Under the pieces are notes generated by a model, which did no database searches, had not been told where the DNA came from, and saw only the letters and a program-made list of their open reading frames with translations. This document shows, in pieces, positions 13,609-59,696 of a stretch of DNA of 64,000 nucleotides. The translations under genes were made by a program, and so were the position numbers. The first letter of the stretch is position 1, and every line of letters starts with the position of its first letter. Origin of the DNA: Halorubrum sp. DM2 (GTDB lineage Archaea > Halobacteriota > Halobacteria > Halobacteriales > Haloferacaceae); contig NZ_LR594487.1 in the NCBI RefSeq assembly GCF_901686465.1, forward strand, positions 186,001 through 250,000, given 5' to 3'.

Positions 13609-13770
13609 TCTGTCGCGCTCTCGGTCGGCATTCATCTCCCGGCAGAGATGCGAGAACGCCACGGATGATCGATTTCTGTTTCTGTCGAAATTCTCTCTTT
13701 CAGCGACATCCCCGCTTGAAACGCTTTGTCGCTCGAAGGCGTTCGTAAATCGCTGATCGACACGACTGCC

Positions 13771-14014
13771 GAAGCCCCAGCCCCGAGGACTCCCGCGGCT
13801 CGTTGCGCTCCTCGCTCGTTCACTTCGTTCACTCGCTGCGGTGCTTACGTCGCCGAGGTTCGCCCTCGGTGCTGCCCCTTCGATTCCCGCCCCGCACAGC
13901 AACCGCACCTCACGCCTCCCCAGCCTCGTCGGCGGCTCCCGTTGGTCGCCGCCGACTCCCTCGCGCGACGCTGTCTCGCGGTCGCCGGGGGCGACCGCTC
14001 GCAGGCGCGCGCCA
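13771..14014 (+). repeat. Structured intergenic element, copy A
   Basis: This is one of five related elements. Conserved blocks are GAAGCCCCAGCC at the left end, CTGCGGTGCTTACGTC, GCTGCCCCTTCGATTCCCG and CTCACGCCTCCCCAGCC. Stem 1 is AGC+CCGAGG (13779-13788) with CCTCGG+GCT (13864-13873). Stem 2 is GTCGGCGGC/GCCGCCGAC (13928-13936, 13948-13956). Stem 3 is GGTCGCC/GGCGACC (13980-13986, 13990-13996). It fills the convergent gap between the UPF0175-like gene and nmd3, about 50 nt from the nmd3 stop. The rest of the gap (13609-13770) shows no feature. Confidence 0.8.
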
Positions 14015-14064
14015 CTGTAGTGACTTGGCGGAACAGTCCTCGAAGCGTTCTGACCGTAGAATAT

Positions 14065-15210
14065 TTACTCCGAGTCCGAACGCCCCGTCACCGTCGGAGC
14101 GTCGCCCTCTCTCGGCACGAGGTGGACCGCTCCCTCGTGTTCGAACGCGAGGACCTCGTCGGCGTCGTCGTCGACGAACGCGGGGTTCGGCACGGTCTTC
14201 GCCTCGTAGGTGACCGGGTCGAGCACCTGGATCGCGTTCTCGTCTTCGACGGTCACCACGGTCGTCTCCGTCGCGTCGTCCCGGGTCCCGAGTCGGGTCG
14301 CGTCGGGGGCCTCTCCGTCCGCGAACGCGGAGGTGTACTCGGCACCCGTGGCGAGGCGGACGCCTTGGAGGCGGCCGGAGACGCCGGTGACGAGGACGGG
14401 GCCGTCGCCGTCCTCGGGGTCGATGATCTCGCCGTCCGCGTACTTCGGGAGCCGGACCGCGAACGTGACGCGGTACACCTCGTTGCCGTCGCCGTCCTCG
14501 GTGACGAGCGTCGGGTACGACTCGAAGCTCCCGCCCAGCGACTCCGTGATCCGCGTCGCGACGTTCTGCGCGAGCCGGTTCGAGGAGAGCTTGATGTCCG
14601 GGCCGTCGTCCGTCTCGTTGACTTCGGTGATGAACGCCTCGCGGTCGCCGTCGGCCTCCTGATCGGCGACGTACGTCTCGGCGATGTCGAGCGCCTCGGC
14701 GCGCTCCGCGGGCGTGAGGTCGCGCTCGTCGGCGCGGACCTGAACGATCCCGGCGTAGTAGCCGCCGGCGATGCGACCGCAGCGGTCGCAGGTCCCCCGC
14801 GAGATCTTGACGGGGACCGTCACCTCCGCGGAGCGGAGCGTCCCGCGCACGACCCCCGAGAAGCGGCAGTGCATCCGGACGTTGTTCTCGTCCACCTGCT
14901 CCGGCTCGACGCCCCACTCGACGTCGTCGGCGTCGACGTGGACGCCGAGCGCCTCCGCGACCTCGTCGACCGCCACGTCGGTGTAGTCGCGCGCGCCCAC
15001 GTCGCGCCACGACTCCCCGCGCCGGACCGCGCCGCAGCCGGAACAGACCAGCACCTCGATCCGGTCGGGCGCGTCGACCAGCTCGAAGTCCTCGAAGTAG
15101 CAGTCGTCACAGAGCAGCGCGTCCCGCCCGCGCGGCTCGCCCGGGAGGGGGTCGCGCCGCTCGGGGACCGGGTCGCCGCAGCGCGGACAGAACTCTCGCG
15201 ACTCGCTCAT
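14065..15210 (-). CDS. nmd3: NMD3-family ribosome-associated protein
   Basis: The 381-residue product matches archaeal NMD3, the homologue of the eukaryotic 60S export adaptor that binds the large ribosomal subunit. The N-terminal zinc region has repeated CxxC pairs: CPRC, CDDC, CSGC and, further on, CDRC. An eIF5A-like/OB region and an acidic C-terminus follow. In archaea the protein cannot act in nuclear export and probably assists 50S maturation or quality control. It is preceded by a short GC-rich gap and diverges from the PDCD5 gene. A structured repeat lies just past its stop. Confidence 0.9.
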   Translation of the reverse strand: MSESREFCPRCGDPVPERRDPLPGEPRGRDALLCDDCYFEDFELVDAPDRIEVLVCSGCGAVRRGESWRDVGARDYTDVAVDEVAEALGVHVDADDVEWGVEPEQVDENNVRMHCRFSGVVRGTLRSAEVTVPVKISRGTCDRCGRIAGGYYAGIVQVRADERDLTPAERAEALDIAETYVADQEADGDREAFITEVNETDDGPDIKLSSNRLAQNVATRITESLGGSFESYPTLVTEDGDGNEVYRVTFAVRLPKYADGEIIDPEDGDGPVLVTGVSGRLQGVRLATGAEYTSAFADGEAPDATRLGTRDDATETTVVTVEDENAIQVLDPVTYEAKTVPNPAFVDDDADEVLAFEHEGAVHLVPREGDAPTVTGRSDSE

Positions 15211-15351
15211 TGCCCGCGGCTACGCCGAGGACCCGTTTAAGCGGCGCGGACCGCGCCGGTCGCTGTCGCCGGCTGCGAGCGCGGAGCCGGGCGATCCGCG
15301 CGGGTCTCGACCTCCGAAATGGTTTTTCGCACGGACCGAGAACGGGCGTGT

Positions 15352-18421: not shown

Positions 18422-19507
18422 GTGGGGACGATGATCCCGCTCGCGACGGCGATGCCCCCCGGCGAGGTCGCCCTCCGGATCGCGGCCGGCGTCTTCCTCA
18501 TCCTGATCAACGCGTACTTCGTGGCGATCGAGTTCGGACTGACCCGCCTCAGGCAGTACCCCGAGTCGGAGATGGACTCTCCCGGCCTGCGCCGCGCTTG
18601 GGAGATGACCGACGATCTGGAGTTCTACCTCACCACCTGCCAGATCTGGATCTCGGGCACGAGCATCGCGCTCGGTATCGTCGCCGAGCCGGGGCTCGCG
18701 GCGGTGTTCGCACCGGTGTTCGAGAACACGACGCTCGCCTCCGCCGGTGCCGGGTCGCTCCTCGCCTTCTTCCTCATCAACATGGTCCACCTCACGCACG
18801 GCGAGCAGACGCCGACGTACCTCGGCGTCGAGCGCTCGAAGCAGGTCGCCGAGTACGGCGCGCGTCCCCTCTACTGGTTCGCGTGGCTCATCTCCCCGCT
18901 GATCACGTTCGGCGACCGGGTCGCGAAGGGAACGCTCCGGCTGTTCGGCGTCGAGATGACCGGGTCGTGGACCGAGACCGAAGGGGAGGTGTTGGAGACG
19001 CGCGCGCAGCTCCGCACCCGTCTCGGCTCGATGATGGAAGAAGTGGACCTGCCCGAGGAGCGCAGACAGGAGGTCCTCGCCGCGCTCGACGTCGACGAGG
19101 TGGCGGTCGGCGACGTCATGACGCCGGCCGACGAGATCGTCTCGCTGTCGACGACCGCGTCCGCCGAGGCGAACCTCGACCGCATCAGCGACACGCCGCA
19201 CGCGCGGTTCCCGCTCGTCGGCACGGACCTGACGGCGTTCGAGGGGATCGTGTACGCGCCGTCGATCGTGAGTCACTTCGACGAGCTCCGGGCGGGCGAG
19301 ACGACGTTCGCGGAGATCGCCGCCCCGCCGATGACCGTCTCGGCCGCGACGAGCGTGAGCGACGCCTTCGACCAGTTCCAGGCGGAGCGACAGGAACTGG
19401 CGCTCGTGATCGAGGACGGCGCGGTCGTCGGGCTGATCACCGCGACCGATGCGCTGGAGGCGGTGATGGGCCAGTTGGAGGACCCGCTGGACGCGGGCGA
19501 CTTATAA
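18422..19507 (+). CDS. CNNM-domain / CBS-domain membrane protein
   Basis: The 361-residue product has an N-terminal CNNM (DUF21) membrane domain with about three to four helices, starting VALRIAAGVFLILINAYFVA in outline. A cytoplasmic CBS pair follows, seen in VGDVMTPADEIVSL and LVIEDGAVVGLITATDALE. This is the CorC/HlyC-like family linked to magnesium or other cation efflux. The GTG at 18422 is one start, and the ATG at 18431 three codons later is equally plausible. Structured repeat copy B begins 10 nt after its stop. Confidence 0.85.
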   Translation: MGTMIPLATAMPPGEVALRIAAGVFLILINAYFVAIEFGLTRLRQYPESEMDSPGLRRAWEMTDDLEFYLTTCQIWISGTSIALGIVAEPGLAAVFAPVFENTTLASAGAGSLLAFFLINMVHLTHGEQTPTYLGVERSKQVAEYGARPLYWFAWLISPLITFGDRVAKGTLRLFGVEMTGSWTETEGEVLETRAQLRTRLGSMMEEVDLPEERRQEVLAALDVDEVAVGDVMTPADEIVSLSTTASAEANLDRISDTPHARFPLVGTDLTAFEGIVYAPSIVSHFDELRAGETTFAEIAAPPMTVSAATSVSDAFDQFQAERQELALVIEDGAVVGLITATDALEAVMGQLEDPLDAGDL

Positions 19508-19517
19508 ATCCGCTGCG

Positions 19518-19768
19518 GTGGCGCGTGCCGGTGAGTGGCCGGTAGGCCACGAACCGCACGCGCGAGGGAGTCGCTGGCGGTTGAGCGGAGCGAAGACCGC
19601 CAGCGACGAGGCTGGGGAGGTATGAGGTGCGGTTGCGGTGCTGTGCGGGGCGGGATTCGAAGGGGCAGCCGTGAGGCGGACAGAGACGACGTAAGCACCG
19701 CAGGGAGTGAGCGAAGCGAACGACCGAGGAGCGCAACGAGCGTCTGTCCGCCTCACGGCTGGGGCTTC
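19518..19768 (-). repeat. Structured intergenic element, copy B
   Basis: This copy of the five-member family is oriented on the minus strand. Stem 1 is 19 bp with no mismatch: CAGCCGTGAGGCGGACAGA (19666-19684) with its complement at 19743-19761. Stem 2 is GTCGCTGGCGGT/ACCGCCAGCGAC (19570-19581, 19596-19607). Stem 3 is GTGGCC/GGCCAC (19535-19540, 19545-19550). The conserved blocks GGCTGGGGAGG, GATTCGAAGGGGCAGCC and GACGACGTAAGCACCGCAG are present. It fills the convergent gap between the CNNM and DoxX-like genes. Confidence 0.85.
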
Positions 19769-19848
19769 GGCGGTGTTTGCCGTCGCTCCGAGATTACCGG
19801 ACTATAACCAATCAACCGGCCGTTCGGAACAGCGCTCCGTATCGTCGC

Positions 19849-20926: not shown

Positions 20927-21032
20927 GTTTGTAATACCACCTCGGAATACGCGCTGCTGGCAGATAACGATACTGGCGAGCGGTAGCACACCACGAACTA
21001 ATCTCGACAACCGACCGCGACCGCAGTTCGCG

Positions 21033-21328
21033 GTGGCGCGCGCCTCCGAGGCCGCATCGCGGCCGAGGAGCGCCGCGTGAGGGAGTCAGTCGCCGGAGCG
21101 GAGCGACGGCGACTGACGAGGTTGGGGAGGCATGAGGTGCTGTGCGGTTGCGGGGCGGGACTCGAAGGGGCAGCCGCGAGGCGGGCAGAGGCGTTCACGA
21201 GAGCGAAGCTCTCGTGAGCCAATCAGAACGCGAAGCGTTCTGATGACGACGTAAGCACCGCAGCGAGGGAGCGAAGCGACCGAGCGAGGAGCACAGCGAG
21301 CGTCTGCCCGCCTCGCGGCTGGGGCTTC
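21033..21328 (-). repeat. Structured intergenic element, copy C
   Basis: This is the most regular copy. Stem 1 is 19 bp perfect: CAGCCGCGAGGCGGGCAGA (21171-21189) with 21303-21321. Stem 2 is GTCAGTCGCCG/CGGCGACTGAC (21085-21095, 21107-21117). Stem 3 is GGCCGC/GCGGCC (21050-21055, 21059-21064). Two extra hairpins inside stem 1 are absent from copies A and B: CACGAGAG/CTCTCGTG (21196-21203, 21209-21216) and ATCAGAACG/CGTTCTGAT (21222-21230, 21236-21244). Both have CGAAG loops. It fills the gap between the DJ-1 and acyltransferase genes; 20927-21032 and 21329-21439 show nothing else. Confidence 0.85.
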
Positions 21329-21439
21329 GGAACGGTTCGTGCCGATCAGCAATTTACGAGCAGGAACACCGCCGTCTGACCGATCGACTCACCTTCTGAC
21401 AGCCGCTACAGGCTGTTCGCGAAAACGCGTTTTAGCGTC

Positions 21440-31880: not shown

Positions 31881-31936
31881 ACTACCCCACCCTACTCGCT
31901 CACGGCTTCGCCGTTCGCTTCGTTGAGGGTGGGGCT
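31881..31936 (-). ncRNA. Candidate omega-RNA 3' hairpin at the TnpB element right end
   Basis: TnpB proteins use an RNA encoded at the 3' end of the element, overlapping the end of tnpB, with the guide taken from the flanking DNA. Here the right-end hairpin (arms 31885-31893 and 31926-31934) contains the tnpB stop codon (31892-31894). On the minus strand the sequence just beyond the end reads into the 3' end of the HerA-like gene. The RNA itself is inferred from the family, and the exact 5' end cannot be placed. Confidence 0.45.
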
Positions 31937-33169
31937 TTCGCGTGGACTCCCGCTCTGGCCGGAATGTCCGGCAGGAGGTTCAAATTCTCCGTTCGCGTTC
32001 AACATCCCGCGATTCAAGCGCACGCCTACGGGTGCGCCTCCGCCGTCCCCAGTTTGGTTACGGCGGAGATACCGCAGACCGATGTTCTTCGCCGCGTTGT
32101 AGTCGGCGTGGTTTTTGTAGTTGCACTTCAGGCACTCAAACTCCTCACCGTTGCGGTTGTCTGGGTGCGTGAAGCCACACGTTGAACACCGACGAGACGT
32201 GTTCTCCGGCTCCACTCGTCCAACCGTAATACCGCGTGGTTCGGCCTTGTACTCAACGTACTCGTACAGCCGCTCGAAGGCCCACTTGTGCCCCCACGCC
32301 GCTTCGGGAACTCTGTCACGGATGCCAGTCAACTCCTCAAAAACGATAACCGTACACCCGTTCTCGGCGGCTTCCTCAATGATGCCGTTGGCAATCCCGT
32401 GGAGTGTCATCTTGAACCGCCCCGTCTCCTTCCGCCCGACTGCCTGTATGTTCTCGTGGGCGTGACGACTTCCGCACTGTTGGAGTGATGCCCGCCGCTT
32501 CTCGTACTCGCGCCGCCAGTGGTCGAACTCGTCGCCGCTCCAAAATGTGCCTGTCGAAGTGACCGCAAGTTGGTTCACGCCGAGGTCAACGCCGAGGACT
32601 GTGCTGTGCCCGGTCGTTGCCTGTTCCGGCGTGTCAGACTCCAAATCCGCCTTTGTTCGGAGATGAAGGAACCACTCGCCCCCCTTGTGGTGGAGTTCCG
32701 CGCCCGTCACCTCGTAGTCGTTATGGTCGAGATACCGACTGTGAGGCGTGTCCCGCTCCGGGTCAGGGAGTACGTAGTCAACTTCGATGCGTCCGTCCAC
32801 GGTTGCCAGCGACACGTACTCGTCGTGGAAGGTCGCACACCGCTTGTCGTACACAGCGGTCGGGGTCGAGAAGTGCGGTTTGCCCGCGTACTCGCCCTGT
32901 TTCCAGCGGGCGACGACGCTCTGTACGGCGTCGGCGGCCTTGTTGCGGGCGTTCTGGACGAGGTTCGCGTGTAAGCGTGTCTGATTGCGTACCTCGTCGT
33001 AGGTTTCCTCCTGCAATTGAGCCTTGCTGGCCGTCTTATATTCGCCCTGCCAAGCGTGGTCTACGACGTAGTTGGCGGCCCACAGAAACTCGTCTACTGT
33101 TTCGCGCAGAAGTGCGGCGTCGTCGCTGTTTACGTCGAGTTTGACCGGGACAGTTCGCCGCACTTCCAT
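31892..33169 (-). CDS. tnpB: TnpB RNA-guided nuclease of an IS200/IS605 element
   Basis: The 425-residue product has the full RuvC-like set: D195 in [12 protein letters not shown]278/E279 in VIVFEELTG and D356 in [11 protein letters not shown]328, C331, C346 and C349 form the zinc finger (CSTCG, CLKC). It therefore looks catalytically intact. The N-terminal WED/REC-like part begins [13 protein letters not shown]. About 55 residues after the last RuvC motif are encoded by the DNA of the element end, including the terminal hairpin. GC is lower than the neighbouring genes in parts. Related TnpBs cut DNA guided by omega-RNA. Confidence 0.9.
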
Positions 33170-37107: not shown

Positions 37108-37286
37108 GTCCGTACGAACCCGTCGGCGACTTTTAACGGTTGTTCTTTCGGGTAGGGGGAGTCAGCGGTTCGCATACTTACGATACTGGCCGTGACACGG
37201 TGATCGATCCGTTTGGTGGGGTGCGTCGATCCAGCCGTGATCGTAAACGAATGACACCGGTTCCGACTTCGACCACGAACACCGTC

Positions 37287-37655
37287 GAAGCCCCAGCCGT
37301 GAGGACCTCCGAAAGACGGTCGCCTCGCTTCGCTCGGCGCTGCGTCTTTCGTGGTCCCGCTCGCTTTCGCTCGCGGGACTCGCGCGCCTTGCTGCGCGCT
37401 TCAGTCGCTCGCTTCGCTCGCTCCTTCCAGTGCTTGCTGCGGCGTGCTTCGTCCTCACGGCTGCCCCTTCGATTCCCGCCCCGCACAGCACCACAGCCTC
37501 ACGCCTCCCCAACCTCGTCACCGGCGCTACGCGCCGGTTGTAAGCGAGAGCTTCCCTCTCGCCCTGTCGGTGGTCCTCCGCGTTGCTCCGGACCACCGAC
37601 TCCCTCGCGGACTCCTCGCGGCCGCCGGGGGCGGCCGCTCGGAGGCGCGCCGGCG
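37287..37655 (+). repeat. Structured intergenic element, copy D (long form)
   Basis: This copy is about 120 bp longer than A, B and E. Stem 1 is CAGCCGTGAGGAC/GTCCTCACGGCTG (37294-37306, 37451-37463). Stem 2 is replaced by several hairpins, starting with ACCGGCGC/GCGCCGGT (37520-37527, 37531-37538). Stem 3 is GCGGCCGCC/GGCGGCCGC (37618-37626, 37630-37638). Extra hairpins inside stem 1 contain GCTTCGC. The conserved blocks GCTGCCCCTTCGATTCCCG and CTCACGCCTCCCCAACCTCG are kept. It fills the gap between rpl11 and the MFS gene; 37108-37286 shows only the rpl11 promoter. Confidence 0.8.
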
Positions 37656-52238: not shown

Positions 52239-52318
52239 ACCCCCGGTCGGCGACCGCTCCGGGAAACGGTTGGGGTCCCGGCGGTACCGTTGCGGAGCGG
52301 AACCCACCGCGCTGTGCG

Positions 52319-52563
52319 GTGGCGCGTGCCGACGAGCGCCCATCGGGCGCGAGGAGCGCCGCGCGAGGGAGTCAGTCGCCGGAGCGTAGCGACGGCGACT
52401 GACGAGGCTGGGGAGGTGTGAGGTGCGGTGCTGGGCGGTGCGGGGTGGGACTCGAAGGGGCAGCCGCGAGGCGGGCGCAGGCGACGGCAGGACCGTAGCG
52501 AGTGAGCAGCGCGAACGAGCGAGGACCGCCCCGAGCGTGCGCCCGCCTCGCGGCTGGGGCTTC
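52319..52563 (-). repeat. Structured intergenic element, copy E
   Basis: Stem 1 is 19 bp perfect: CAGCCGCGAGGCGGGCGCA (52461-52479) with 52538-52556. Stem 2 is GTCAGTCGCCG/CGGCGACTGAC (52371-52381, 52393-52403). Stem 3 is GCGCCC/GGGCGC (52336-52341, 52345-52350). The conserved blocks GGCTGGGGAGG, GACTCGAAGGGGCAGCC and GGCTGGGGCTTCGG are kept, while the GACGTAAGCACCGCAG block is diverged. It lies between the LLM gene and rpl37e. Confidence 0.85.
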
Positions 52564-52624
52564 GGCGGTCTCAACGGCGCTGTCACTCGCGGAGTAGTAC
52601 GCGGCTGGGGCTTCGGCGGTCTCA
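52549..52624. repeat. 25-bp direct repeat of the end of copy E
   Basis: The end of copy E, starting CGCGGCTGGGGCTTCGGCGG, is repeated: 25 bp at 52549-52573 and again at 52600-52624, 51 bp apart. The intervening bases are unrelated. This indicates a partial duplication of the element end. The remainder to 52721 shows nothing. Confidence 0.75.
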
Positions 52625-52721
52625 GTCACGGAGTTGATTCCGACGAACGTCGTCACTTCTACGACCACGATACCTGCCGCTCGCCGAGCGGAAAGCGAGA
52701 AGAAAGCCGAGAAAACGCCGG

Positions 52722-58638: not shown

Positions 58639-59553
58639 GTGTCACGGTATCGAGACGCTGCGCTGTTCTGTCTGCTCGCGCTGTTCTGGGGCGGCTCGTT
58701 CGTCGCCATCGAGGTCGGTCTCGACTACTACCCGCCGGTGTTGTACGCCGCGTACCGGTTCGACGTGGCCGCGCTGGCGCTGATCTCGTACGTCCTGCTC
58801 ACCGAGAGCGACCCGTTCCCGCGGAGCCGCGGCGATCTGGCCGCGATCGGGTTCAGCGGCGGGCTCTCGGTGGCCGCGAACAACAGCCTGCTGTTCGTCG
58901 GCCAGCAGTACACGACGAGCGGCATCGCCTCGATCACCTACAGCCTCGTTCCCATCGCGACCGTGGCGGTCGCGGCCGCGTGGATCGGCGGGGCGGACCT
59001 CGACGCCCGCGGCGCGGTCGGCGTCGTTCTGGCCTTCCTCGGCGTGGGGCTGGTCGCACAGCCGGACCCGGCGAACCTCGGCGGGGGCGTCGCGATCGGC
59101 GTCGGGCTGATCGCGATCGGCGTGGTCGCCGTCGCGGTCGGGAGCGTCGGCCTCCGGACCGTGGAGACGACGTTCTCCAGCGTCGCGCTCACTGGCTGGG
59201 CGATGGGGTTCGGCGCGCTCGCCATCCACGCGCTCAGCCTCGGACTCGGCGAGGGGCAGCGGCTCCCGGCCGCGGCACCGCGCGCGCTCGCCGCGCTGGC
59301 GTTCCTCGGACTGCTCTCGTCGGCGGTGGCGTACACCATCTACTTCACGCTGCTCGACCGGCTCGGCCCCTTCGAGATCAACCTCGTCTCCTACGTCGTT
59401 CCGATCGTCGCGACCGTCGCCGGCGTCCTGCTGCTCGACGAGCCGGTGACGGCGTTCACCCTCGCGGGCTTTACCGTCATCGTCCTTGGCTTCGCGCTCT
59501 TAAAGCGCCGCGAGATCGCCGACGCGGCCGCCGAGATCCGGTTCCGAGCGTAA
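58639..59553 (+). CDS. EamA/DMT-family transporter
   Basis: The 304-residue product has about ten membrane helices in two EamA repeats (LFCLLALFWGGSFVAIEV and LGLLSSAVAYTIYFTLLDRL). It belongs to the drug/metabolite transporter superfamily. GCTTTACCCC (58609-58618) lies about 27 nt before the GTG start, a leaderless arrangement. The last codons, EIRFRA and stop, form the first unit of a 7-copy tandem repeat. The substrate is unknown. Confidence 0.85.
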   Translation: MSRYRDAALFCLLALFWGGSFVAIEVGLDYYPPVLYAAYRFDVAALALISYVLLTESDPFPRSRGDLAAIGFSGGLSVAANNSLLFVGQQYTTSGIASITYSLVPIATVAVAAAWIGGADLDARGAVGVVLAFLGVGLVAQPDPANLGGGVAIGVGLIAIGVVAVAVGSVGLRTVETTFSSVALTGWAMGFGALAIHALSLGLGEGQRLPAAAPRALAALAFLGLLSSAVAYTIYFTLLDRLGPFEINLVSYVVPIVATVAGVLLLDEPVTAFTLAGFTVIVLGFALLKRREIADAAAEIRFRA

Positions 59554-59655
59554 TCCGGTTCCGAGCGTAGTCCGGTTCCGAGCGTAGTCCGGTTCCGAGC
59601 GTAGTCCGGTTCCGAGCGTAGTCCGGTTCCGAGCGTAATCCGGTTCCGAGCGTAG
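59537..59655. repeat. Seven 17-bp tandem repeats on the 3' end of the EamA gene
   Basis: The unit TCCGGTTCCGAGCGTAG occurs seven times without interruption at 59537, 59554, 59571, 59588, 59605, 59622 and 59639. Copies 1 and 6 end in TAA instead of TAG. The first copy encodes the last residues and stop of the EamA protein. The rest of the gap to 59696 has no other feature. Confidence 0.95.
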
Positions 59656-59696
59656 AAAGGTCGCGGCCGCGCCGCACCGTTACGAACCGGCGCTCG

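Follow-up and report, generated by a model that had tools for sequence, protein, structure and literature searches.

Copy B and the anatomy of the repeat

The window analyzed here is a 64,000-nt stretch of the genome of Halorubrum sp. DM2. Copy B, the element under study, lies on its plus strand at 19515-19774 (model positions 1-263; positions 2-263 of the nhmmer family profile match 19516-19774). It lies between two convergent genes. The stop codon of the upstream one (18422-19507), which we take to be CNNM/CBS-like, precedes it by 8 nt, and the closest relatives of its flanking gene share 81-88% protein identity, all in named Halorubrum species. The unit is about 260 nt long and consists of a 5' hairpin (P1), a second hairpin (P2), a linker and a large hairpin (P3). 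P1 occupies 19521-19563, with an outer stem pairing 19521-19528 with 19556-19563, as found in both the minimum free energy (MFE) and centroid folds and in the covarying columns of alignment A1. P2 (19570-19607) has arms at 19570-19581 and 19596-19607. The linker (19608-19657), recognized from the invariant columns of A1, contains conserved GAGGCTGGGGAGG and a variable TGCGGTGC stretch.

P3 (19658-19769) was defined from alignment A3 (69 copies, 36 pairs) and covariance model R1. It is built of a closing helix, CGAAG/CTTCG, a 3x3 GGG/GGG internal loop, a 19-bp variable stem (the outer stem, 5' arm 19666-19684 and 3' arm 19743-19761, from sequence and pair counts) and an inner helix (19686-19741, from an unbiased column scan and from pair and loop tables). 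In many copies of other species the closing helix is CAAAG/CTTTG, a paired change. Within the inner helix, covarying 2-bp steps alternate with nearly invariant tandem G.A/A.G mismatches, and the apex is mostly a GNA triloop; among 4-nt apex loops of the GNNA type, 15 of 17 are GNYA, not GNRA. When all column pairs were scanned with no structure assumed, pairs of the P3 inner helix, the outer stem, P2 and P1 ranked top.

The family profile also recognizes copy A (13765-14016, minus strand), of a second P3 subtype, copy C (21031-21330, plus), with two extra hairpins inside P3, copy D (37281-37650, minus), with extra hairpins in P2 and P3, and copy E (52317-52569, plus). The hairpins inserted in copy C (21194-21243) and copy D (37388-37561) are perfect, and several have a C-GAA-G apex. 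About 10 copies, e.g. at G000:C1:695037-695284, are preceded by a second shared 5' flank, GCTCAGTACAGG...CGACCGATCTGCGGT. Most copies are followed by 3' tails of tandem 48-69 bp units (e.g. 19770-19812 and 52570-52640), each unit ending near GAGCGGCTGGGGCTTCGGCGGT and having a hypervariable centre; the plus-strand tail of copy B (19770-19812) is a degenerate relative of these units. The window also holds an intact gene for a 425-aa TnpB of the IS1341 type (31892-33169, minus strand) and seven tandem copies of a 17-bp unit, TCCGGTTCCGAGCGTAG, at 59537-59672.

The tail spacings are a multiple of 3 in 57 of 61 cases, and one frame of the reverse strand, reading AEAPAARLY..., has almost no stops. 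Despite this, reverse-strand coding is unsupported, because there is no codon-position signal (third positions are not more variable and there is no synonymous excess) and no consistent start, and because P3 lengths are not multiples of 3. Spurious reverse-strand open reading frames arising from the elements, such as 13726-15240 (plus) and 19437-19736 (minus), can pollute haloarchaeal annotation.

Paired changes in the stems

A sequence-only reading of the window had claimed that copy B keeps a perfect 19-bp stem with bases unlike those of copies C and E. Comparison of the arms bears this out: CAGCCGTGAGGCGGACAGA at 19666-19684 is matched exactly by its complement, TCTGTCCGCCTCACGGCTG, at 19743-19761, the two being separated by 58 nt, and the arms at the equivalent place read CAGCCGCGAGGCGGGCAGA and TCTGCCCGCCTCGCGGCTG in copy C and CAGCCGCGAGGCGGGCGCA and TGCGCCCGCCTCGCGGCTG in copy E. 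Copy B differs from copy C at two pairs and from copy E at four, and every difference is paired on both arms. In addition, the RNA fold of copy B has a z-score of -7.0, with no shuffle as low.

The same reading held that paired substitutions of this kind are hard to explain by chance or by coding constraint, and proposed counting paired and unpaired changes over further copies. The pair analyses, which drew on sequence stretches around the copies, did not reveal the many unpaired changes that would have refuted this reading. The P3 stem in 141 copies from several species showed 351 paired and 73 one-sided changes, and 51 distinct canonical copies of the DM2 genome showed, over 18 pairs, 128 both-sided and 22 one-sided changes. 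In these 51 copies the stem is 97.5% Watson-Crick, vs 77.6% (maximum 80.9%) after the 3' arms were dealt among the copies. P2 behaves likewise (341 paired Watson-Crick vs 45 one-sided changes in 147 copies). Among the 69 copies of the A3 alignment, 26 of the 36 P3 pairs changed on both sides and 99.1% of pairs are standard; the covariation score was 0.421, vs 0.152 for shuffled alignments (0 of 500 as high), and at most 0.068 when the partner was slid. The P3 model also picked out matches in five other genera, which are hence fitted to it; these scored 0.667 vs 0.177, with outer stems that differ in sequence and are still paired. The change counts are not independent events, because copies share alleles; the conservative figure is how many further pair types occur, namely 56 in Halorubrum and 83 in the other genera. 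The paired changes show that the fold is conserved; chance and coding do not explain them, and the observation is stronger than originally stated.

Complementarity could also arise by mutation alone, if hairpin-directed template switching copied one arm onto the other with no selection on the fold. The outer stem has frequent swaps between G-C and C-G without wobble intermediates, the P2 apex is inverted in three of 49 copies (A1 rows L144, L022 and L198), which suggests exchange between the two arms, and copies C and D contain extra perfect hairpins, all of which speaks for template switching. However, passive copying of arms would make Watson-Crick pairs, and the tandem G.A mismatches and the GGG/GGG loop of P3 have not been converted to pairs. 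The nearly invariant G.A/A.G mismatches between covarying steps therefore argue for selection on a specific fold. The conservation of the core across families and the strand asymmetry of wobble pairs (see below) point the same way, so that template switching without selection is largely contradicted already, and we regard it as improbable.

Inherited places, sequence turnover and relatives in the order

A BLAST search with copy B found at least 40 copies in the genome, and covariance model R1 gave 128 matches in 3.45 Mb, 63 on the plus and 65 on the minus strand. This even split, with runs as expected, gives no sign of a replication-strand bias like that of KOPS or Chi. The core CGAAGGGGCRG occurs 141 times in the genome, vs 16 times in the reversed control. 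The element is present in all 34 sampled Halorubrum genomes, with 58-249 first-look candidates in each. With gene calls from a simple composition score, no copy falls inside a predicted gene, and gaps between convergent genes hold 36 copies vs 14 in divergent gaps; in many cases a co-directional gene ends 8-80 nt upstream of the copy. A 356-kb stretch of the chromosome (G000:C1:1016268-1372313) is free of copies and is perhaps an acquired region. The element is nearly absent from plasmids, with a partial match on one Halorubrum plasmid, and a search of phages found none. Such near-absence is odd for a mobile element, since relatives of the TnpB of the window lie on 118 plasmid records, five of them from Halorubrum. 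The best reading is that the family is chromosome-bound.

Copies at the same place in different species have identical orientation in 47 of 49 pairs; however, in only one of the 49 does the same-place copy rank first among 108 own copies, and the ranks cover the whole range. Thus, positions are inherited while sequences turn over. The simplest reading is that gene conversion among copies is presumably behind the turnover, because copies at one place resemble each other no more than copies taken at random do. About 10 of 24 Halorubrum species have an element at the site of copy B; in the others the site is empty or holds a remnant. A close relative of copy B in genome G021 (L212) lies at a locus of which one side is not syntenic with the DM2 genome.

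Relatives of the element occur in several families of its order. In those from other genera the core and the closing helix are kept, and the outer stems are different but complementary. P3 stands singly in genome G145, and the P1-P2-P3 unit is present in G036 and G100, which belong to other families. In G058 and G060, also of other families, two P3 hairpins lie in inverted orientation at a distance of about 150-370 bp (L271, L277 and further loci), forming terminal inverted repeats with outer ends GGAAGCCCC...GGGGCTTCC. Single and inverted-pair P3 recall REP singlets and REPINs, which suggests, by analogy, that P3 is or was a recognized end. No element match to Rfam 15 reached the gathering score, permissive matches fell far below the gathering scores, and only a tRNA was found in the window. 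A search of open-licence papers by words and by core sequence gave no description of the element, although one in a subscription journal could have escaped it. Apparently, the family is order-wide and undescribed.

The folded strand and the nature of the family

At pairs polymorphic by transitions, the drawn strand carries G.T in 90 cells and A.C in 6 (11 sites vs 3), an excess that comes mostly from three pairs (the outer stem minus one pair has 19 G.T vs 15 A.C). Such asymmetry speaks against a double-stranded cruciform, which would be symmetric, and, only moderately, in favour of the drawn strand folding as a single strand; it is compatible with RNA and single-stranded DNA alike. In DNA, loops of the GNA and GNNA types have unusual stability, whereas GNRA loops dominate in RNA.

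One explanation is selection of the fold as RNA, in which case transcripts of the top strand would be either free small RNAs or modules in the 3' UTRs of upstream genes. This would agree with the G.T wobbles of the drawn strand, the richness of the top strand in purines (the element has a GC skew of +0.29 and an AT skew of +0.17), the tandem sheared-type G.A motifs and the co-directional gene ends upstream of many copies; moreover, transcription of one haloarchaeal repeat, a 489-bp PATE, has been reported from a virus-host system of Halorubrum lacusprofundi (PMC10544981). However, a search for a conserved promoter found only 23 of 100 copies preceded by the TATA-like TTATAA, copies at tandem-gene sites showed no orientation preference (18 with and 23 against transcription), and stems are little worse where the upstream gene points away (0.55 vs 0.31 non-Watson-Crick pairs per copy). 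The tetraloops are non-GNRA, and the near balance of G.T and A.C in the outer stem minus one pair also weighs against it. Transcription of the element as RNA is possible, and selection of its fold as RNA rather unlikely. Of the sequence-only reading, the paired substitutions stand as real and beyond chance and coding; the molecule that folds may be RNA or single-stranded DNA, and neither a conserved promoter nor an orientation preference speaks for RNA.

Among known systems, the anatomy of the element resembles that of REPs or PATEs. The PATEs are palindrome-associated transposable elements of haloarchaea, described in Haloquadratum (PMC3119063) and Halorubrum lacusprofundi (PMC10544981). Like them, the element is non-coding, a few hundred bp long (about 260 bp here, too short for a transposase) and present in many copies, with near-terminal palindromes and, in Halorubrum, neither a terminal inverted repeat nor a target duplication. 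In contrast to PATEs, it keeps position and orientation across species, has a covarying complex fold, is nearly plasmid-free, and has ends unlike those of IS605-type loci in this genome. At the flanks of eight TnpB and two TnpA loci, which were searched for a transposase with matching ends, there was no profile match, only short generic matches to the P3 inner helix; an IS605 origin in this genome was rejected for lack of likeness at these flanks.

With REPs and REPINs the element shares intergenic hairpins with conserved flanks and, in the wider family, singletons and inverted pairs. However, its hairpin is about 112 nt long with an internal mismatched core, vs 20-40 bp in REP/REPIN, the GTAG/CGTC tag is missing, the conserved flanks being CGAAGGGG and GGGGCTTCG, and the inverted two-hairpin arrangement, present in G058 and G060, is not found in Halorubrum. 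A search for a RAYT brought up none, only two Y1_Tnp proteins, both near TnpB (IS605-type) genes.

An active MITE with an unrecognized transposase would account for the dispersed, intergenic copies, for the site polymorphism and for the inverted-repeat arrangement in other genera. Against this, Halorubrum copies have neither terminal inverted repeats nor target duplications, distinct species carry the element at the same place and in the same orientation, and it is missing from phages and almost entirely from plasmids. In a search for a target-site duplication or a conserved insertion motif none was found, the likeness of 5' and 3' flanks averaging 7.24 vs 7.12 for shuffled pairs. An active MITE thus appears very unlikely. 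Since the element lacks several of the defining features for which it was tested (IS605-like ends, tags and target duplication), it is not classed as a PATE, a MITE or a REPIN.

Bacterial repeats such as bcr1 and ERIC are taxon-restricted, intergenic, about 100-250 bp long and have a conserved predicted fold. The haloarchaeal element shares these traits, a likeness in general description, and differs in its unrelated host domain and in having order-wide relatives with fully replaced outer stems.

We consider that copy B belongs to a haloarchaea-wide, non-autonomous and chromosome-bound family of REPIN- or PATE-like repeats, whose single-strand fold is selected, which is served by a trans-acting factor and whose copies undergo gene conversion, and we give this reading a probability of about one half. 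The identity of the family would lie in the fold of one strand, namely P3, in which a long perfect stem encloses a conserved core with regular mismatches. The folded top strand would be recognized by a trans-acting factor, as RNA or as single-stranded DNA, the latter exposed in replication or transposition as with REPs and IS200/IS605-type ends; this part of the model we infer. The family would have spread long ago, and its copies would now be rewritten mainly by gene conversion among the roughly 130 copies in the polyploid cell. Whole hairpins would move in this way, and pairing would survive the turnover because the transferred tract carries both arms.

Alternatively, the elements may be a new kind of structured nucleic acid that spans the order, its mismatched core conserved and its outer stem free to change. 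About 130 copies per Halorubrum genome, at fixed places on the chromosome and rewritten by gene conversion, would then perform a chromosomal job, e.g. as sites for a dedicated RNA- or single-stranded-DNA-binding protein, and would not be mere traces of past transposition. We put this forward tentatively.

Dispersed structured repeats are common in prokaryotes, and base-by-base selection of a fold, with exchange of sequence at fixed places, is rarely demonstrable. This family, which Rfam does not include, allows it, with more than 100 copies per genome in an order that has genetically tractable members. Its copies amount to a natural collection of compensatory mutants and could serve for testing gene conversion in polyploid archaea, and the element is a candidate ligand for the putative trans-acting factor.
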